From Desulfobacteraceae bacterium 4572_130 (lineage in GTDB: Bacteria > Desulfobacterota > Desulfobacteria > Desulfobacterales > Desulfobacteraceae): a stretch of DNA of 64,000 bases. The DNA lies in NCBI GenBank assembly GCA_002084425.1, contig NBLN01000002.1, forward strand, positions 1-64,000, in the 5' to 3' direction. Within the stretch, counting starts at the first letter, position 1, and each line of letters begins with the position of its first letter. Shown here piece after piece: positions 456-15,696 of the stretch. The notes beneath the pieces are model-generated. The model was not told the DNA's origin. It saw nothing but the letters and a program-made list of their open reading frames with translations, and made no database searches. The translations under genes and the position numbers were made by a program.

Positions 456-674
456 TTGAGAATGAGAATTGTTTTTTACCAGTGCCCTAATTGTTTGAAT
501 AATAATTTTCATAAACAATGCGGTAATGCATTACCATATATTGCAGAGTGTGAAGAATGTGGACAATTATTTTGTCCTAAATGTGGAAATCATTCTTTTT
601 GGTTTGGAGGGACATGTCCTAAATGTAAATCTACAAAAAGTAGAGATATAGGAAGAATTCAGGAAAAAAAATAA
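456..674 (+). CDS. Small zinc-ribbon protein, first gene of the tRNA-Leu island
   Basis: A 72-aa protein with nine cysteines, eight of them in four CxxC knuckles (CPNC at 10-13, CEEC at 32-35, CPKC at 40-43 and 54-57), so it probably binds two zinc ions. It has no signal peptide or membrane segment. The start is uncertain: TTG at 456 or ATG at 462, the latter 11 nt after a weak AGG. Its TAA stop overlaps the ATG of the next gene by one base (TAATG), so the two are probably translationally coupled. It is the first of only two genes between the tRNA repeats. I do not recognise a named family; a nucleic-acid or protein-binding sensor or adaptor role for the partner is inference only. Confidence 0.6.
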   Translation: MRMRIVFYQCPNCLNNNFHKQCGNALPYIAECEECGQLFCPKCGNHSFWFGGTCPKCKSTKSRDIGRIQEKK

Positions 675-1441
675 TGTCTAGTTCAAAAAACATAATATCT
701 AATACTTCACCACAAGATAGTAAAGCGTCTGGTTGGATTGGTAGATTTTTAGGGCCATCAGCGGATTATTTAGGGATAGAATTAAGAGACTGGATAAAAG
801 AGAAAATACAAAAAAAAAAACAAGAGAAGTCTAAACAGCAAAATGAAAATCTTTGTAGTCATATAAACGTGGTAAACGAATTAAATGATAAAAGCGGTTT
901 GTCTATTTTCCCGCAATTAGACGACATAGAATCTTTGAATCAATTGACTATAGTAGCTGACTGTTTTGAAAATATGCAAGATGTGAGTCCTGATGATAAA
1001 GCATTAAGTAACTTATGGAGAGCACTTTTAACTAAAGTTATTATAGGTAAAACAAGGAGTCAGCGCTTATTAGAACTTCTTAAACAAATCAATTCTGAAG
1101 AAGCTGATCTTTTTTATACATTCAGAAATGGAAAGAATAGACTGGCACCAAGAAATGATTATGGGAGGTATTACTTAAAAAATTTAAAAAAATTAGGATT
1201 AATAGAAATAAATTTTATAATCCCGATAGTTATAAATTTATTTATATTCTTAACGATTCCCATTATACAATCTTTTTATAATAATTTTCCGTCTTCTATA
1301 GTGTTTGTCAATTTAATCATTACTTGTTTATTTTTTTTAACGCCATTGTATAAAGCTTCGTGGATTGGGCAAGAATTATTATCCTATACAAATTTAATTT
1401 CAAAAAACATACAAATTTTAGTACACAATAACTATATGTAA
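674..1441 (+). CDS. Abi-alpha (DUF4393)-like membrane protein, candidate phage-defence effector
   Basis: A 255-aa protein. Residues 28-60 (ADYLGIELRDWI followed by a lysine-rich helix) and 78-150 (FPQLDDIE..., DDKALSNLWRALL, LLELLKQINSEEADLF) follow the layout I associate with the Abi-alpha/DUF4393 family: a helical 'G..L.DW' segment, then 'L...W..LL', then 'L..L...EA..L'. Two hydrophobic segments at about 181-201 and 207-226 follow, then a short GQELL tail. The gene is coupled to the upstream zinc-ribbon gene and enclosed by the tRNA-Leu repeats. Abi-alpha proteins are named for abortive infection, so a defence role is plausible, but the assignment rests on pattern recognition. A membrane-acting toxin or effector is an inference from the C-terminal hydrophobic pair. 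Confidence 0.55.
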   Translation: MSSSKNIISNTSPQDSKASGWIGRFLGPSADYLGIELRDWIKEKIQKKKQEKSKQQNENLCSHINVVNELNDKSGLSIFPQLDDIESLNQLTIVADCFENMQDVSPDDKALSNLWRALLTKVIIGKTRSQRLLELLKQINSEEADLFYTFRNGKNRLAPRNDYGRYYLKNLKKLGLIEINFIIPIVINLFIFLTIPIIQSFYNNFPSSIVFVNLIITCLFFLTPLYKASWIGQELLSYTNLISKNIQILVHNNYM

Positions 1442-2521: not shown

Positions 2522-3682
2522 TTATTTTATTCGTTTTATATCTGCACCAAGATTTGAAAGTTTTTTTTCAATAGAATCATATCCCCTGTCAATATGATAT
2601 ACCCTATGAATTATAGTTGTTCCTTGAGCAACAAGTCCTGCAATAACAAGTGATGCACTTGCCCTTAAATCTGAAGCCATAACAGATGCACCTGTCAGTG
2701 TTTTTACACCTCTTACCAAAGCATTGTTTGGACCTGATATGGAAATATCTGCACCCATTCTTTTAAGTTCATTAACATGAATAAATCTATTTTCAAAAAT
2801 TGTTTCATTAACCATGCTGTTACCCTTTGCAAGGGACATTAGTACCATAAATTGAGCCTGCATATCTGTTGGAAATCCTGGATAAGGAAGGGTTTTAATA
2901 TTTATATTTTTAATTGTTTTTTTTCCCTTTACTCTTATTTGATTTTTTTTAATCTCAATACTGGAGCCCATTTGTTTTAATTTATCAATAATTCCAGACA
3001 TATGTTCAGGCTCACATCCTTTAATAAGAATATTACCTCTGGTAGCAGCAGCAGCTACCATAAAAGTGCCTGCTTCAATTCTATCTGGAATAACAGATAT
3101 TTTTGCAGGTTTAAGAGAATTAACACCTTTGATTTTAATAACAGAAGTTCCAGCACCTGTTATTTTTGCTCCCATAAGTTTAAGAGCATTGCTAAGGGCT
3201 ACAATTTCAGGTTCTCTTGCAGAATTTTTAAGAATGGTTGTTCCCTTTGCAAGGGTTGCTGCCATCATAAGATTTTCAGTGCCTGTAACAGTTGGAATAT
3301 CAAAATATATTTCAGTACCTTTTAATCTATTAGCTTGAGCTTCAATATATCCATGTTTAATACTGATTTTTGCCCCTAAAGCTTCAAGTCCTGTTAAATG
3401 CATATCAACAGGTCTTGCACCAATAGCACATCCTCCTGGAAGAGAGACTTTTGCTTTGCCAAATCTTGCAACCAAAGGCCCAAGAACTAGAATAGAAGCC
3501 CGCATTTTTCTTACAAGTTCATATTCTGCTTCTGTTTTATTTATTTTGGAGCAGTTAATTTTAATTTTTTCTTGTTTGCTTTTACACTTTGCCCCAAGGT
3601 CTTCTAGTGCGGCATTTTTTGCACCACTTATTGTAACTTCACCTTTAAGTTGGTTTCCACCTTTAATTTTAATTTTATCCAT
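2522..3682 (-). pseudogene. murA: UDP-N-acetylglucosamine 1-carboxyvinyltransferase (MurA) with an internal in-frame deletion
   Basis: MurA transfers enolpyruvate to UDP-GlcNAc, the first committed step of peptidoglycan synthesis. The frame is open for 386 codons and keeps the SGAKNAAL start of the active site, the catalytic Cys in [10 protein letters not shown] (residue 85; Cys115 in E. coli) and PTDMQAQF. After KNAAL, however, the protein jumps to EDLGAKC. Compared with the usual 417-419 residues, about 31 are missing, corresponding to E. coli 27-59. These include Asp49 and a strand-helix unit of the first inside-out repeat. Such a protein would probably not fold normally. Either the gene is a decaying copy with a second murA elsewhere, or the 93-bp gap is an assembly or amplification artefact. 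No strong ribosome-binding site precedes the ATG. Confidence 0.8.
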
Positions 3683-7765: not shown

Positions 7766-8965
7766 TTAAATAGTTATTTTTTTTGATTTTAAAACATATG
7801 CCAGAATAATACCTACTCCAAATCCAATGGCAAGATTTAATGTTAAGGTGATTCCCAGCATTATTAAACTTACAAATAGGTCCCTTTGTTCTTTAATATC
7901 AATTATACTAAGACTAAGCTGGGTACCAGCAAAAATTAAAAGTATTCCCAGTACAGAAAATGGGATAAGGTTCACAATAGCAAGGCTATGAATTCCTAAG
8001 AAAATAGCAAGTGCAATAAAAATAATTCCAATCATAAGGTTAGAACCAGCAGTACGAGCACCAAACCTGTAATGAGCTGCTAATCCTCCTGCACCATGGC
8101 ATAAAGGCATGCCACCCACAAAAAAGCATAAAAAATTAGCTAGAGCCATAGTAAAACACAATGCTTTATAAGTTACTTTTTGGGAAGCTTTACCAAAATA
8201 TTGTTGGGATAAATCAGCATTAGCAATAACAGCATTGCCTATTGTCATAGGTAATTGGGGAAGAACAAGAGCTAACAGAGCAAAGGAAAAATCTCCTTTA
8301 GTTGGAAAACCAAATGGTAATAATTGAGGTAGATAAATACCAAGTTTAATTTTGTCAAATCCATCATGGTTGCCCCAGATTAAGCCTAATGTAAGACCAA
8401 ATAAAATAATTAAGAGACCACCAGGAAATTTTTTATTATCCAGGAACAAAAGAGTGATTATAGTGCAAATTATGCCAATAATAATACCTATTGGGATTGT
8501 CTTAAAACTCTGAATGTATAGATAAGGTTCAACCATGCCTTGCATAAGCTGATATTTTGAGGTCCCCACCACAAATTTAATACCTTGGACAATTAATAAA
8601 GTTCCAGTTGCTAATTGAACTCCTCTAACTACTGATTGTGGTATGTATCTGTCCAAAAATGTAATAGCACCAGTTCCTCCAATAATCAAAAGAAATATAC
8701 CCACTAGAAGTCCTGAAGCTGTGATTTGAGAGGCGTTTAAGCTCATGGCAACAGCATAGGCACCAATAACTTTCATGGGTTGGACTGAAACTGTTATTCC
8801 ATAATACATGCCGGAAACAATATAAAATAATCCCAAAGAGAGAAAAACACCACAAGGGCTTAATCCATTGATCATAATCATTCCCAAAGATAAAGGAAGA
8901 AGTGTACCAAGATCACCAAATGCCCCGGCAAGTTCCCTGGGATTAAATTTATAATAAGGTCTCAA
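7766..8965 (-). CDS. MOT1-family molybdate/sulfate transporter
   Basis: A 399-aa inner-membrane protein with about ten hydrophobic segments. Near the N-terminus it carries the MOT1 signature ELAGAFGDLGTLLPL, and in the second half GGMPLCHGAGGLAAHYRFGAR. These two motifs define the MFS_MOT1/putative sulfate transporter family, which imports molybdate and possibly tungstate or sulfate. In an anaerobe this would feed molybdenum or tungsten cofactor enzymes, which is inference. There is no STAS domain, unlike SulP proteins. It lies 115 bp downstream of the GT2 gene on the same strand and is probably an independent unit. Confidence 0.85.
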   Translation of the reverse strand: MRPYYKFNPRELAGAFGDLGTLLPLSLGMIMINGLSPCGVFLSLGLFYIVSGMYYGITVSVQPMKVIGAYAVAMSLNASQITASGLLVGIFLLIIGGTGAITFLDRYIPQSVVRGVQLATGTLLIVQGIKFVVGTSKYQLMQGMVEPYLYIQSFKTIPIGIIIGIICTIITLLFLDNKKFPGGLLIILFGLTLGLIWGNHDGFDKIKLGIYLPQLLPFGFPTKGDFSFALLALVLPQLPMTIGNAVIANADLSQQYFGKASQKVTYKALCFTMALANFLCFFVGGMPLCHGAGGLAAHYRFGARTAGSNLMIGIIFIALAIFLGIHSLAIVNLIPFSVLGILLIFAGTQLSLSIIDIKEQRDLFVSLIMLGITLTLNLAIGFGVGIILAYVLKSKKITI

Positions 8966-9080: not shown

Positions 9081-10511
9081 TCAATTTTTATTAACAATAT
9101 GAAATTTAACAATTGGATTAAAAATCTGTTTGTATAATGCATAAATTACTGATGATGATTCAACTAACATTGGCAATTGAAAAAGGAAAAGCACATAAGT
9201 CATAAAAACAATATAAGCTTTTTTTCTAAATGGTGCATTTAAGTGATAAACATTTCGATATGCACCAACAACATAAAGGGACCCTATTAAACCAACCAAT
9301 ATAGCTGTTAAAATAGTTGCCCAAAAAGGAAAAAATCTTATATCATAAATCAGTTTCATAACAATGCAGTCAAATAAAAACAAAGGAGCTCCAAACCAGG
9401 CAAATGTCCATGCAAATACATATATCATTAAAATAAACCTGTTAGCTAATTTTAATTTGCTGTCTGTTGCTACACGAATTAATCCTGTGTACCATCTGGC
9501 TCTTTGTCTGATAATATCCATAACTGTAAAAGGAGACTGTTCTTTTATAAAGCCATTTACCCAGTCAAATTTAACTTTTTTTTCTGCGGCAAGAAGAGCA
9601 AAATATGCATCTTCTGTTAAACAACTTTTACCTCCAGAATCCCAGCCTATTTCTTGTTCGATTTTTGCAGGAAGCAGTACAAAGCTTCCATGCATTCCAA
9701 TTAAAGGTTTATTAAATATTTTATATTGCAATCTAAATCTTCCAAGGTCATCACCTGTTCTTAGAGCATCAATAGCAGTTATAAAAATATTTTTTCCATA
9801 ATTATAGGCATTATAAAGAATTTCACCCTGTCCCAAGGCTCCCTTGGTATTATTCATATTATATTTTAAAATAAAATTTCTAATACCCATAATTAACTGG
9901 GATGTAATTATGCTTTCTTCATCAAGGTGTAATACCCATACATCATTAATATGTAATTTAGAATTTTCCTTAAATCTTTGTGTCCGCATTTCCAAAAGAT
10001 ATTGCAATGCTCTTGCTTTGTACTTAACCTTGGTTTTTGTCTCATAATTATCTGGAATTATATAATAATAAATTTTTCCATTTGTTTCAGAAATTCGATT
10101 TTTTCTGATTACTTCTTGGTCTGTTACTATTTCAATAGCATATTTAACTTCAGCACTATCTAGTTCCTGTTGTGTTGCTGCTATTGCTCTTTTTAATGCA
10201 ATTTGATTATCTCCCCTGCTTACATAGGAAATAATCAGTAAAGAACCTGTTGGATCCCAAGTCCAACCAGCAAAATCTTGTATATTTTCATCTTTTGGAG
10301 CACCAAAAAGTAATCCAAAAAAATTCATAAGAACCCATAAAATTGGGATAAACCATATAAAATTCAGATAATAATAAAAATGTTCAAGAAAATTTTTTGG
10401 AATTAAAATATTTGTATCATACCATAAAAAACAATTAATATAGATGTGTATAATAACTGGAAAAATAATAGCTGTTATATAAAGAAATATTGGTTTAGCT
10501 CTACTAGTCAT
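9081..10511 (-). CDS. Egghead-like family 2 glycosyltransferase (membrane polysaccharide synthase candidate)
   Basis: A 476-aa integral-membrane GT2. Predicted membrane segments lie at about 7-27, 47-69, 358-381, 395-417 and 431-452, with the catalytic domain between. The metal/donor motif is HLDEES (195-200), the acceptor-base motif LTED (298-301), and the Q(x2)RW motif QRARW (336-340). Flanking text such as GDDLGRFRLQYK, NKPLIGMHGSFV and EQSPFTVMDIIRQRARW matches my recollection of the metazoan beta-1,4-mannosyltransferase Egghead/BRE-3. D/TED/QxxRW is the pattern of processive synthases. It is the last gene of an operon, 19 bp after the propeller-porin gene. A role in making a secreted glycan is inferred; the sugar is unknown, although mannose is suggested by the Egghead resemblance. 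Confidence 0.85.
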   Translation of the reverse strand: MTSRAKPIFLYITAIIFPVIIHIYINCFLWYDTNILIPKNFLEHFYYYLNFIWFIPILWVLMNFFGLLFGAPKDENIQDFAGWTWDPTGSLLIISYVSRGDNQIALKRAIAATQQELDSAEVKYAIEIVTDQEVIRKNRISETNGKIYYYIIPDNYETKTKVKYKARALQYLLEMRTQRFKENSKLHINDVWVLHLDEESIITSQLIMGIRNFILKYNMNNTKGALGQGEILYNAYNYGKNIFITAIDALRTGDDLGRFRLQYKIFNKPLIGMHGSFVLLPAKIEQEIGWDSGGKSCLTEDAYFALLAAEKKVKFDWVNGFIKEQSPFTVMDIIRQRARWYTGLIRVATDSKLKLANRFILMIYVFAWTFAWFGAPLFLFDCIVMKLIYDIRFFPFWATILTAILVGLIGSLYVVGAYRNVYHLNAPFRKKAYIVFMTYVLFLFQLPMLVESSSVIYALYKQIFNPIVKFHIVNKN

Positions 10512-10530
10512 AATACCCCACTTATAATTA

Positions 10531-12783
10531 TTAGAATTTTAATTCAAAGCATGTTTCAAATTGCATTTTAGATTTTTTTGCTGGTTTTGATAAAGCATTA
10601 TCATATAGATTTCCGGGCCAGAAAATACCAGCAAACAAGTTAAAACTTAAGTGTTTATTAATAGAATAATCTGCTTTAAAATTTAATTCCTGTCCTTCAT
10701 CTTTAGAGATGTCTAAATTAGACAGGTGTTCTTTTCTTAGAATAGAATAAAACAAACTAAGTTTAATATTGTCCCAGGGAAAAACCAATATACCTAAATT
10801 GCCTATATGCATATTTTTTTTTATATTTCTGATTCTACCCCATTTTATATCACTATCAAGGTTATCACCTGACAAAATATCAAAATTTTCATTATCAGTT
10901 GTATCTGGATCATCACCAGATAAATATGCATATTCAAATCTAAATTCTGGTTTCAGCATTATTTTAGGATGCTTCCATATGGTTTGAACATATCCTCCCC
11001 ATGCATTTCTATTAATTTCAGCTTTATTTTCATCCACTGTGCTTCCAGTCTGCTTTGTTATTTCAGAATTAAGATTTAAATTTTTTGTAAATTTATATTC
11101 TGTTTTTATACCTATAGCTGTAGTTTTTTCCTGTATAGTGTTATTTTTTTTATGGAATATATAAGCTTCTGATATTAGAGGTTTATTTAGTATTTTCAAA
11201 TTATATCTCAAATTTAAACCATAAACATTTTTTCTAAACTCTTTAAAATTATTATCCCATGTAAAAAAATTATCTTTATCTTTATCAAAATCAAAAAAAT
11301 TATTTCCACTATGTCTTGTACCTGCAAACAAATCAACTTTTAGATCCTTATCATTAAAAAGTAAGTGTGCACCATCATAACCATTATATTCTCCCATAAG
11401 AAGTTTTCGCCCAAAGGACAGCTCTTGTCTTCCAAGAATTAATGTAAAAGGAGAGTCAAACATTCTGTAAAACTGTAGATAGCCCCTATATATTTCTATT
11501 TCTTGAATATCAAAATTCCATCTATGGTTTATTTTCCATTCAATGGCTCCTGAAATTTTTTTTGTAAATGATAATTTTAAGGAAGGTCTTAATTCTGTTT
11601 CCACATCTGACTTAAATTTTGATTCTTCAGCTACTTTTTTATCTCCCTGATTTATCCAGTGATTATCCCATATTCCCTTTATAAATAATTTTGTTCTAAA
11701 GGAAACATCAATTTTTTTTTTAGGTTTAGGATTAGTTAGCTCTAGCGTTGCAAGGCAAATAGAAGTATCAATTTTACCATTATTTCCTGGTTGTTTTATT
11801 CCACCATAATAAATATACATGATATTATTTTCTATAAATAAACAAGGGTCTTGCGCTCCAAATTTGTCATAAATAGCATTGGGTTCAAAAATTGGTTTTC
11901 CATTAAATTCCGGGTCCCAATTTTCAAGATCCTTACTTTTCCATAAATAAATCTTATTTTTATGTGTTGCATAATCAAATTTACTTCCAGCATTATACCA
12001 GGCTGAATAAACTAGATACCAAATTCCATTGTATTTAGTTACTGAACTACTGCCTCCTGAAGAAACAATACATTTTGCTGAAGAAGCATCAGAAAGACCC
12101 TGCCATGTTAATGCCTTTCTTTTCCAGGTCTGCCAGATATTTTTTATTTTTTTGCTGTAAAATAAATGATAATATTTTCCATCATGCACTAGATAAGGAT
12201 CTGCTATTGTATCTGCTTTTCCAAAAAATAACTCAGTACCTACATTAGGATATCCATCATCAGTTCTGCCTATTTTTGATCCATTTTCTAGCATACCAGT
12301 TGAACACTGATATATAATTTTTCCTTTTTTTTCCTTTGGGTCAAATATATACATGCTGGAAACCAGATGCCCTCCACCCCAGCCGCCTATCCAGCCATGT
12401 GGTGCTAAAACAGGATTATCATTATTTGATATAGTCCAAGGACCTTTAGGATGAGGAGCAGTTGCTTCCCCCAAAGACCAGATATTAGTTGTATGAGGAT
12501 ATAAATTAGGAGGACTTCCATGACCAGATAATAACATGCGATATTTATTCCCTTGTTTTATTACATGGGCATCATCTGCCACAGTTCTGCGCCAGTGTCC
12601 TGGCTGATAATGTATTTCCGTTAATGGCGGGGATAAACCCAAACGATTGGATAATACGATTCCTTTTTTTTTTACGGAATCATATTTGATTTTAAGTTCA
12701 TTTGTTGTGTTTTGTGCAGATATGTTTTGTACTGAGGAAAAACTAATTATAAATAAGATTAAAACAATAAATCTATATTTCAT
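10531..12783 (-). CDS. Secreted five-bladed beta-propeller fused to an alginate-export-like outer-membrane barrel
   Basis: A 750-aa exported protein. Residues 1-23 form a signal peptide ending SAQ. Residues about 45-350 form a GH43/GH130-like beta-propeller, with repeated blade phrases: DDAHVIKQGNKYRMLLSG, GEATAPHPKGPWT, ADPYLVHDGKYYHLFYSK and FGAQDPCLFIENNIMYIYYGG. Acidic residues are in positions expected for such folds, but I cannot assign the catalytic triad. After a PKPKKK linker at about 350, the remaining 390 residues are alternating amphipathic strands ending in Phe, as in outer-membrane barrels. Phrases such as LILGRQELSFGRKLLMG and WDGAHL-like YNGYDGAHL recall alginate-export (AlgE-like) porins. 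It sits between a barrel-less paralogue and a GT2 synthase, which suggests glycan binding or trimming coupled to export. Confidence 0.75.
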   Translation of the reverse strand: MKYRFIVLILFIISFSSVQNISAQNTTNELKIKYDSVKKKGIVLSNRLGLSPPLTEIHYQPGHWRRTVADDAHVIKQGNKYRMLLSGHGSPPNLYPHTTNIWSLGEATAPHPKGPWTISNNDNPVLAPHGWIGGWGGGHLVSSMYIFDPKEKKGKIIYQCSTGMLENGSKIGRTDDGYPNVGTELFFGKADTIADPYLVHDGKYYHLFYSKKIKNIWQTWKRKALTWQGLSDASSAKCIVSSGGSSSVTKYNGIWYLVYSAWYNAGSKFDYATHKNKIYLWKSKDLENWDPEFNGKPIFEPNAIYDKFGAQDPCLFIENNIMYIYYGGIKQPGNNGKIDTSICLATLELTNPKPKKKIDVSFRTKLFIKGIWDNHWINQGDKKVAEESKFKSDVETELRPSLKLSFTKKISGAIEWKINHRWNFDIQEIEIYRGYLQFYRMFDSPFTLILGRQELSFGRKLLMGEYNGYDGAHLLFNDKDLKVDLFAGTRHSGNNFFDFDKDKDNFFTWDNNFKEFRKNVYGLNLRYNLKILNKPLISEAYIFHKKNNTIQEKTTAIGIKTEYKFTKNLNLNSEITKQTGSTVDENKAEINRNAWGGYVQTIWKHPKIMLKPEFRFEYAYLSGDDPDTTDNENFDILSGDNLDSDIKWGRIRNIKKNMHIGNLGILVFPWDNIKLSLFYSILRKEHLSNLDISKDEGQELNFKADYSINKHLSFNLFAGIFWPGNLYDNALSKPAKKSKMQFETCFELKF

Positions 12784-12870
12784 TATGTTTCCTTTTTTAT
12801 GTTCTTTATATGCTTAATAGTAATCAGATAATTTTTTTTTAATAAAAATCAGCACTTTATAGTTTTAATA

Positions 12871-13929
12871 TTACTTATTAGTTAACTTAAAAGTTACCAG
12901 CCCAATGGAAGTATTAGTTTCTCCATTATTTTTTGGATCTTGTATTACACTATAATAAATATACATCACATTATTTTCTATAAACAAACAAGGATCTTGT
13001 GCTCCAAATTTATCATAATCATCATAAGATTCAAAAATTGGTTTTCCATTAAATTCTGGAGTCCAATTTTCAAGATCCTTACTTTTCAATAAATAAAGTT
13101 TGTTTTTGTGTTTTTTATAATCAAATTCATTTTCATCATCATACCAGGCTGAATAAACTAGATACCAAACTCCATTATATTTAGTTACTGAACTGCTGCC
13201 TCCTAAAGGAACAATACATTTTGCAGAAAAATCATTAGCTAATCCCTTCCATTTTGATGACTTTCTTTTCCAAGTCTGCCAATTATTTTTTACTTTTTTA
13301 CTATAAAATAAATGATAATATTTTCCATCATGAACCAGATAGGGATCTGCTATTGTATTTGCTTTTCCAAAAAATAACTCAGTGCCTATATTAGGATATC
13401 CATCATCAGTTCTGCCTATTTTTGCACCATTTTCTGGCTCACCAGTTGAACACTGATATATAATCTTTCCTTTTTTTTCCTTTGGATCAAATATATACAT
13501 ACTGGAAACTAAATGCCCGCCACCCCACCCGCCTTTCCATCCAGGGGATACCAAAAGAGGATTATCATTATTTGATATAGTCCAAGGACCTTTAGGGTGA
13601 GGAGCAGTTGCTTCACCCAAAGACCAGATATTATCTGTATCAGGATATAAATCAAAAGTACTTCCATAACCAGATAATAGCATGCGGTATTTATTTCCTT
13701 GTTTTATTACATGAGGATCATCTACCACAGTTCTGCGCCAGTGTCCGGGCTGATAGTTTAGCTCTTTTGAGGGCAAAGGCAGATCTAAACGATTAGATAA
13801 TATTATTCCTTTTTTTTCCAAAGAATCATATTTGATTTTAAGGTCCTTATTTTTGTTTTGTATAAATATATTTTTCATTGCAAAAAAACCAACTATTAAT
13901 ATTATTAAAATAATAAATTTATACTTCAT
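12871..13929 (-). CDS. Beta-propeller (GH43/GH130-like) protein, barrel-less tandem paralogue
   Basis: A 352-aa protein highly similar along its whole length to residues 1-350 of the next gene, with the same blade phrases (PGHWRRTVVDDPHVIKQ, GEATAPHPKGPWT, DPYLVHDGKYYHLFYSK, FGAQDPCLFIEN). It stops at LTNK exactly where the paralogue enters its linker and outer-membrane barrel. The N-terminus (residues 1-22) is hydrophobic but lacks a clear cleavage site, so it could be a signal anchor; periplasmic location is inferred. AGGA precedes the ATG. It is the first gene of the operon, 87 bp before the fusion. Function could be glycan hydrolysis, phosphorolysis or just binding. Confidence 0.75.
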   Translation of the reverse strand: MKYKFIILIILIVGFFAMKNIFIQNKNKDLKIKYDSLEKKGIILSNRLDLPLPSKELNYQPGHWRRTVVDDPHVIKQGNKYRMLLSGYGSTFDLYPDTDNIWSLGEATAPHPKGPWTISNNDNPLLVSPGWKGGWGGGHLVSSMYIFDPKEKKGKIIYQCSTGEPENGAKIGRTDDGYPNIGTELFFGKANTIADPYLVHDGKYYHLFYSKKVKNNWQTWKRKSSKWKGLANDFSAKCIVPLGGSSSVTKYNGVWYLVYSAWYDDENEFDYKKHKNKLYLLKSKDLENWTPEFNGKPIFESYDDYDKFGAQDPCLFIENNVMYIYYSVIQDPKNNGETNTSIGLVTFKLTNK

Positions 13930-13957: not shown

Positions 13958-13999
13958 AACCACGAGAAGCACGAAATTATACAAAAAGGATATTATATT
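13958..13999 (+). repeat. Half copy of ACCACGAA-type repeat
   Basis: TTAACCACGAGAAGCACGAAA followed by an AT-rich tail. Related blocks lie at 44332-44400, 53079-53148, 54379-54441 and about 61287-61316. Similar accacgaa...ttcgtggt repeats are common in many bacterial genomes. Confidence 0.5.
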
Positions 14000-14034
14000 T
14001 TATTAGATTATAGTTTTTAAGTTAATCAATAGGT

Positions 14035-14427
14035 TTAAAAATATTTTTTAAGTAAATCAATTTCTTTTATTAAAACTGCTTTTTGTTTTATAGTGTCAAT
14101 AAATACAAATGTTATTTTAGCATCTATTACCATTTTATCAGTGCCTTTAATAAAAATTTTCTGTGTCATTTCACAACTTTTGTTTTTGATTTTTCCAAGT
14201 TTTGTTACAACTTCTATAGTGTCTCCAACACTTGCAGGATATAAATAATTAATATTGATATTTACAACAACAGGTCCAAGATTTTTTTCCTTTAATTTTT
14301 TAAGATCAAAAATTCCCAAAGCCCATCTGCCTTCTTCTATAAATTCAAGATATCTTGCATTATTAACATGTCCAAATGAATCAATGTGATAACTGCGAAT
14401 TATTATTTCTATTTTATCTGTTTTCAT
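14035..14427 (-). CDS. Acyl-CoA thioesterase, hotdog fold (4HBT family)
   Basis: A 130-aa single-domain hotdog protein. The N-terminal YHIDSFGHVNNARYLEFIEEGRW carries the 4HBT signature in which Asp and the GHVNN turn form the thioester site. The central PVVVNININYLYPASVGD and C-terminal beta strands complete the fold. It hydrolyses acyl-CoA thioesters; the physiological acyl chain is unknown. It is monocistronic on the minus strand, with 150 bp of AT-rich sequence before proB. Length is usual for the family (about 130-140). Confidence 0.88.
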   Translation of the reverse strand: MKTDKIEIIIRSYHIDSFGHVNNARYLEFIEEGRWALGIFDLKKLKEKNLGPVVVNININYLYPASVGDTIEVVTKLGKIKNKSCEMTQKIFIKGTDKMVIDAKITFVFIDTIKQKAVLIKEIDLLKKYF

Positions 14428-14577: not shown

Positions 14578-15696
14578 TTATCTAAGTATTATCATATTAT
14601 TTCTATCAATTACTTCATCAGCGCTTTTTTTTTTTAGAATTTTTTTAATGTCTCTTGTATGTAAACCCTGAATTTTTTGAATATCACTTCCTGAATAAAA
14701 AGATATGCCTCTTGCAAAAAGTTTACAAGATTTGTCATAAACACCTACAAGGTCATTTTTTGCAAAATCTTTTTTAATTGAAACTATGCCGCTTGGAAGC
14801 AGACTTTTTCTGTTTTCCAAAATAGCTTTTTTTGCTCCATCATCAACAAATATTTTGCCTTTGATTTTTTCATTAAACAAAAGCCAGTTCTTTTTTTCTC
14901 TTTTTTTTATTTTGTTTGGTAAAATAAAAGTTCCAATATCTTGTGCTTGTAAAATTTCAAAAAGTTTTGGAGTTCTTCCATCTGCAATAACAACTCCAAT
15001 TCCTCCATCAACAGCATGTTTAGAAGAATGCAGCTTTGATTTCATTCCTCCTTTGGAAACATCATTTTTCTTGTCTTCAAGCTTGGAAAAAATTTTATCA
15101 TCTAATTTTTCTACAATGGAAATTCGTTTGGCATTTTTGTTTTTATGAGGATCTTTATTAAAAATTCCATTTGTGTCTGTAAATAAAATCAACATATCAG
15201 CATCTATTAAAAGTGAGGTAAAAACAGATAAATTATCATTATCTCCAAAATTAAGTTCATCAACTGCTATACTGTCATTTTCATTAATAATAGGAATAGC
15301 ATTATAGGATTTAATTGCAGAAAAACAGTTTTTAAGGCACATAAATCTTTGCCTGTTTTCAACAATATCATAGGTAAATAAAATCTGACTTGTAAAAAGA
15401 TTATGTTTTGAAAAAACTTTGTCCCATTTTTCCATTAAAATATTTTGGCCTATAGAAGCAAGTGCTTGATTTTTTCTTAAACTTTTAGGCCTGTTCTTTA
15501 TTTTTAATTTTTTCATGGCACATCCAATTGCTCCAGATGAAACAATAGTAAATTCAAAACCTTTTTTTCTTAGAATAACAATATCTTTAGCAATTTTTTC
15601 TAAAGGATTTAATTTGTTTTTTTCAGAAAACAAAACATTTGTGCCAATCTTTAAAACAATTTTCTTTGTTTTTTTTATGTAAATTCTTTTTTCCAT
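14578..15696 (-). CDS. proB: Glutamate 5-kinase
   Basis: A 372-aa cytoplasmic enzyme that phosphorylates glutamate in the first step of proline synthesis. The amino-acid-kinase domain (about 1-265) shows VLKIGTNVLF, IVSSGAIGCAM, the glutamate-site INENDSIAVDELNFGDND, and FTDTNGIF with GGMKSKL. A C-terminal PUA domain (about 285-370, with LLPSGIVSIKKDFAKNDLV) is present as in E. coli ProB. No proA neighbour is visible. The start is the first ATG, opposite an AT-rich spacer shared with the RND genes. Confidence 0.95.
   Translation of the reverse strand: MEKRIYIKKTKKIVLKIGTNVLFSEKNKLNPLEKIAKDIVILRKKGFEFTIVSSGAIGCAMKKLKIKNRPKSLRKNQALASIGQNILMEKWDKVFSKHNLFTSQILFTYDIVENRQRFMCLKNCFSAIKSYNAIPIINENDSIAVDELNFGDNDNLSVFTSLLIDADMLILFTDTNGIFNKDPHKNKNAKRISIVEKLDDKIFSKLEDKKNDVSKGGMKSKLHSSKHAVDGGIGVVIADGRTPKLFEILQAQDIGTFILPNKIKKREKKNWLLFNEKIKGKIFVDDGAKKAILENRKSLLPSGIVSIKKDFAKNDLVGVYDKSCKLFARGISFYSGSDIQKIQGLHTRDIKKILKKKSADEVIDRNNMIILR

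Follow-up and report, generated by a model that had tools for sequence, protein, structure and literature searches.

A candidate compact glycan-export operon with a duplicated, permuted GH43-like propeller in Desulfobacteraceae bacterium 4572_130

How few parts are needed for a Gram-negative, synthase-type system to make a glycan and move it across two membranes? The question is raised by three adjoining genes in the window, that is, the whole 64,000-nucleotide stretch of contig NBLN01000002.1 analysed here, for which a first-pass annotation had proposed a new compact secretion system. Our best reading, to which about an even chance is given, is that the cluster is a compact operon of a synthase-dependent-like kind that serves glycan secretion.

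Gene layout and surroundings

It can be observed that the three minus-strand genes are present as first annotated, with gaps of 87 and 19 bp and with all reading frames intact. Transcription runs from the 352-aa propeller protein through the 750-aa propeller-barrel fusion to the 476-aa membrane GT2. The features are as follows.

7766-8965: flanking gene, molybdate-transporter-type protein (Pfam)
9081-10511, minus strand: GT2 glycosyltransferase, membrane-integrated, 476 aa; PF13632, synthase-like topology
10531-12783, minus strand: propeller-porin fusion, 750 aa; signal peptide ends ISA/Q
10534-11721, minus strand: AlgE-type outer-membrane barrel domain of the fusion (residues 355-750); PF13372
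11731-12615, minus strand: propeller domain of the fusion (residues 57-351); D70, D195 and D312 common to the stand-alone copy
12871-13929, minus strand: stand-alone propeller, 352 aa; N-terminal hydrophobic helix (residues 5-23), uncleaved-looking, and predicted circularly permuted GH43-like five-bladed propeller; predicted to be inner-membrane anchored and periplasmic
13992-14020, minus strand: promoter-like TTAAAA-17-TATAAT, 5' of the stand-alone propeller gene; weak, about equally common in shuffles of the region
14035-14427: flanking gene, 4HBT thioesterase (Pfam)
14578-15696: flanking gene, amino-acid-kinase/PUA protein, glutamate 5-kinase-type (Pfam)

The flanking genes are ordinary, and promoter-like boxes are about as numerous in the real region as in its shuffled versions. 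The GC content of the three genes (0.29-0.31) matches that of the window (0.287), and there is therefore no hint of a chimeric contig. The first-pass annotation also held that no PilZ or TPR partner lies nearby, which agrees with our scans: no TPR was detected in the three proteins or in the Pfam-scanned neighbouring genes, and PilZ (PF07238) has no match anywhere in the genome assembly, which is 80% complete.

The outer-membrane barrel and the membrane glycosyltransferase

The AlgE-like barrel that had been proposed for the C-terminal region of the 750-aa protein is confirmed at the family level. Residues 425-733 match Alginate_exp (PF13372) with 64.7 bits against a cut-off of 25.2 (E 8.7e-18), and the last residue is Phe, as is usual for outer-membrane barrels. 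The match supplies the outer-membrane beta-barrel porin of a synthase-dependent exopolysaccharide (EPS) system, for which a role in export is predicted. An AlphaFold2 single-sequence model of the fusion was set aside at a pLDDT of 29. The fusion is the sole PF13372 protein found in the 80%-complete assembly. The family occurs in 68 of 198 phylum genomes, where open frames elsewhere, among the matches listed, reach at most 576 aa versus 760 aa here; therefore, the fusion is unique in this 198-genome sample. The closest barrels in 389 class genomes are 21-32% identical and unfused, with lengths of 432-501 aa except for one broken frame. In most of the six neighbourhoods of the nearest barrels in the class, the genes found are those of acyl-CoA ligases or Mur ligases and not ones for glycan export, so membership of the barrel family alone is no proof of polysaccharide export; in one of the six, a TPR protein and a GT4 are present. 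Locus L150 (6243-10486), in which an AlgE-type barrel relative has a TPR protein on one side and a GT4 glycosyltransferase on the other, is probably a more conventional polysaccharide locus. Neither a GT2 of the cluster's type nor a GH43-like propeller was detected by local HMMs in 12 neighbourhoods of barrel relatives.

The description of the 476-aa protein as a membrane GT2 with D/TED/QxxRW motifs likewise holds. It matches PF13632 above the cut-off (93.5 bits, E 2e-26) and carries the motifs LDEE, TED and QRARW, of which D197-E198, E300-D301 and Q336-W340 are retained in distant relatives. Two hydrophobic helices lie near its N-terminus and about three near its C-terminus. No second PF13632 protein was found in the 80%-complete assembly. 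In the order and phylum samples no relatives were detected beyond short, weak stretches; matches in three genomes, which score 18-20 bits and cover mainly the TED-QxxRW stretch within frames of 825-911 aa, were rejected. No relative was found in phage records, and a single-sequence search of genome contigs yielded no match. The closest relatives found in the plasmids and genome contigs searched are haloarchaeal and 18-25% identical; the genome-contig search, performed with an alignment seeded by the haloarchaeal plasmid matches, returned haloarchaeal GT2s only, sampling beyond the phylum being uneven. On a haloarchaeal plasmid (L011, 4863-7041), a GT2 belonging broadly to this type adjoins a family 16 glycosylhydrolase, another pairing of GT2 and hydrolase.

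An AlphaFold model of the GT2, built with 37 haloarchaeal relatives, reached a pLDDT of 63 and a pTM of 0.66. Its nearest structural neighbour by VIA-align was PcManGT (PDB 6yv7; Z 13.6 over 276 aligned residues), followed by hyaluronan synthases at about 12-13 Z, including the Chlorella virus hyaluronan synthase at up to 12.9, and BcsA at 11.9. Since rows within 1 Z are treated as tied, PcManGT and the hyaluronan synthases tie, and therefore a processive synthase and a single-sugar transferase are not separable by this comparison, while PF13632 membership and the synthase topology are consistent with a processive enzyme. The best twelve Foldseek matches of the model were all polymer synthases, none below E 1e-3. 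PcManGT and the Egghead/BRE-3 type GT2s share with the cluster GT2 a minimal, cellulose-synthase-like membrane architecture, the resemblance to Egghead being one that we presume. However, the presumed role of PcManGT is the addition of a single sugar to a lipid-linked (N-)glycan, and the cluster GT2 is only 11% identical to it. The motif QxxRW is also present in non-processive GT2s, such as ceramide glucosyltransferase.

These likenesses bear on the main rival, decoration of a lipid-linked glycan, which we consider rather unlikely. On this view the GT2, like Egghead-type enzymes and as has been suggested for PcManGT, would transfer a single sugar, perhaps mannose, onto a lipid carrier or a glycolipid. 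The propellers would then be periplasmic lectins or glycosidases that trim glycolipid at the cell surface, and the barrel would be a porin that is either unrelated or co-opted. The top rank of PcManGT and the occurrence of QxxRW outside processive enzymes speak for it, as do four haloarchaeal plasmid relatives of the GT2 that stand alone or beside a GH16 protein. It is weakened by the hyaluronan synthases lying less than 1 Z unit from PcManGT with BcsA close behind, and by the coupling of the GT2 in an operon to an export-type barrel; moreover, the mannosyltransferase function of PcManGT itself could not be experimentally confirmed (PMC8993221). The mannose link raised in the first-pass annotation is hinted at only. 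No full-length GMP_PMI was found in the incomplete genome, where a single partial match stays below threshold, and the supply of GDP-mannose is therefore unsupported, although GDP-mannose can also be made by other types of gene and part of the genome is missing.

The propeller domain and its two copies

Regarding the propellers, the native sequence order gave sub-threshold matches only, to GH130, GH43 and GH117. The fused copy scored 18.5 bits against PF04616 (cut-off 32.2; E 1.4e-3; profile positions 11-148), short of a full-length match above the cut-off; for the stand-alone copy the Pfam scan reported no PF04616 match, and GH130 (PF04041) gave 16 bits against a curated cut-off of 26, over a single blade only. 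In an alignment with the GH43 structure 4qqs the order was swapped, residues 190-267 corresponding to the first blades and residues 70-140 to the last, and the sequence was rotated for this reason. When made to begin at residue 185, the fused copy aligned with profile positions 11-265 of PF04616 (E 7.4e-5), although without reaching the curated cut-off; it should be noted that this gain is not a blind test, as the idea of a permutation came from the 4qqs alignment. With an independent GH43 HMM built from 14 phylum proteins, both copies gave a single contiguous alignment of about 31 bits after the residue-185 rotation and two swapped segments in native order. Residue-shuffled propeller sequences scored at most 9 bits, and genuine GH43 proteins scored highest without rotation. 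After circular permutation the five blades are co-linear with GH43. Judged from sequence, the propeller domain is a circularly permuted GH43-like five-bladed fold, and the carbohydrate type assigned in the first-pass annotation, beyond the reach of the native-order searches, is well supported by the permutation test.

In the alignment with GH43, D195 falls at the position of the base and D312 at that of the pKa modulator, while D70 takes the place of the acid Glu; all three are kept in both copies, and a histidine (H139) lies near the blade-V position. Blade motifs, three acidic positions and a His near blade V are shared with the five-bladed propellers of GH43, and also of GH130 and GH117. 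Unlike those of GH43, which are not permuted and carry the acid Glu, the cluster's propeller is circularly permuted, carries Asp and remains below family cut-offs. Since the acid Glu is replaced, activity may be lost. The GH43-like permuted fold with its retained acidic positions may correspond to the periplasmic modifying enzyme of synthase-dependent systems, for which an enzymatic role, hydrolase rather than lectin, is predicted.

The stand-alone and fused propellers, which are a tandem duplication, are 76% identical in protein and 85% in DNA. With dS of 0.39 and dN/dS of 0.32, both copies have been kept under purifying selection. They differ most at the N-terminus, where residues 1-28 are 46% identical. 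A plausible signal-peptidase site (ISA/Q) is present in the fused copy, whereas the stand-alone copy reads IFI-Q at the same place and has a stronger N-terminal hydrophobic helix; for these reasons, the stand-alone propeller is probably anchored in the inner membrane.

Neither the propeller nor the propeller-porin fusion was found elsewhere among sampled genomes of the same phylum, of which each search covered up to 395; plasmids and viral contigs held no relatives of either, and a PHROGs search returned nothing. A weak propeller match in one genome was spurious, lying in the wrong frame and overlapping another ORF. Co-occurrence of the three genes in other genomes, a check set by the first-pass annotation, was not borne out, as neither the propeller nor the GT2 was found in hundreds of same-phylum genomes, and there is therefore no second locus for comparison. 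The operon is a singleton, seen in one genome among samples drawn mostly from the same phylum.

Comparison with known export systems and competing explanations

Synthase-dependent systems consist of a synthase, a periplasmic modifying enzyme, a barrel and a TPR/SLR scaffold (PMC9384988). The cluster shares with those for alginate, cellulose, PNAG and Pel a synthase-type inner-membrane GT2, a periplasmic sugar-active domain and an AlgE-type barrel within one operon. It differs in that neither a TPR/SLR scaffold nearby nor a PilZ (c-di-GMP) protein was detected, and in that its periplasmic domain is a permuted GH43-like propeller by alignment, fused to the barrel and duplicated. The first-pass annotation, which described the known components as usually separate proteins, overstated the contrast: the scaffold belongs to the porin in BcsC, PelB and PgaA (PMC9384988), and Zymomonas is reported to have BcsZC, in which a hydrolase and a porin are fused (PMC7112194), so that a periplasmic enzyme fused to the exporter is known in principle. 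The remainder of the Zymomonas operon is of the cellulose type, whereas the cluster comprises a propeller, an AlgE-type barrel and an extra free copy. BcsZ belongs to another hydrolase fold, GH8. AlgE-like barrels also serve Wzx/Wzy systems, outside synthase pathways; in the EpsX/EpsY composite translocon an AlgE-like 18-stranded barrel likewise has a periplasmic partner, but this is an OPX protein of the Wzx/Wzy pathway, while in the cluster it is a GH43-like propeller in the same chain as the barrel (PMC9601211). The new features here are the kind of domain that occupies the periplasm, the presence of that domain in two copies with probably different locations, and the absence of a TPR gene nearby and of a PilZ protein. 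The proposal of a new compact system stands in part: the barrel fusion, the membrane GT2, the carbohydrate-type propellers and the lack of PilZ or TPR nearby favour it, while the fusion precedents, the missing co-occurrence and the tie between processive and single-sugar structural neighbours count against it.

In a compact operon for a secreted glycan, the inner-membrane GT2 would take a cytoplasmic nucleotide sugar, build the glycan and hand it to the periplasm. The GH43-like propeller copies, one tethered at the inner membrane and the other on the porin, would bind it, trim it or do both, each on its own side of the periplasm, and the AlgE-type barrel would release it across the outer membrane. 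The propeller would stand in for the TPR scaffold and the separate hydrolase of the PNAG, cellulose and Pel systems. The operon-like spacing, the PF13372 and PF13632 matches, the permuted GH43 fold and the polymer-synthase structural neighbours argue for such export; the singleton operon, the neighbours of barrel relatives, PcManGT as best match, the lack of PilZ and TPR, the Asp in place of Glu and the pLDDT of 63 argue against it.

Transport may instead run inwards, which appears improbable. The fused propeller and porin would capture and import host or environmental oligosaccharides, cut by the propeller in the periplasm, and the GT2 would be a neighbour with a separate job. This would suit the mostly degradative GH43, GH130 and GH117 relatives of the propeller and the class PF13372 proteins, which often adjoin genes unrelated to glycan synthesis; however, the neighbours scanned include no sugar transporter, TonB receptor or gene of sugar catabolism, and a distance of 19 bp to the GT2 speaks for a common task. 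That the cluster is a decaying remnant, a fragment acquired by a reduced genome (1.94 Mb at 80% completeness versus mostly 3-7 Mb in relatives) with non-catalytic propellers, is very improbable, since the three frames are intact and dN/dS between the propellers is 0.32, even with the acid Glu lost to Asp and propeller and GT2 relatives not found in the phylum sample.

Returning to glycan export, it may tentatively be proposed, as a possibility well short of an even chance, that the three proteins form a minimal secretion machine lacking both TPR scaffold and c-di-GMP receptor, in which the duplicated permuted GH43-like propeller serves as enzyme and scaffold, tethered at the inner membrane and on the outer-membrane exporter. 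If a polymer is exported, the cluster would illustrate how small the parts list of a Gram-negative synthase-type system can be, and that the TPR scaffold at the exporter is replaceable by an enzyme domain. Furthermore, the permuted GH43-like domain would offer a clear example of a glycosidase propeller that has been remodelled, and the set of propeller, porin and GT2 is small enough for transfer to E. coli and direct test.

With 1.94 Mb in the 80%-complete assembly, a window GC of 28.7% and same-family relatives mostly of 3-7 Mb, the genome of the lineage looks reduced and is perhaps that of a host-associated organism; 16S rRNA had no match in this assembly. At 674-1441 (plus strand) of the window there is a sub-threshold match to Abi_alpha (abortive infection), with hydrophobic segments at the C-terminal side. 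A MurA-like protein at 2522-3682 (minus strand) has a normal start, after which about 30 residues seem to be missing and the profile match restarts near position 57. This points to a deletion or rearrangement inside an essential gene, possibly through genome decay or an assembly fault.
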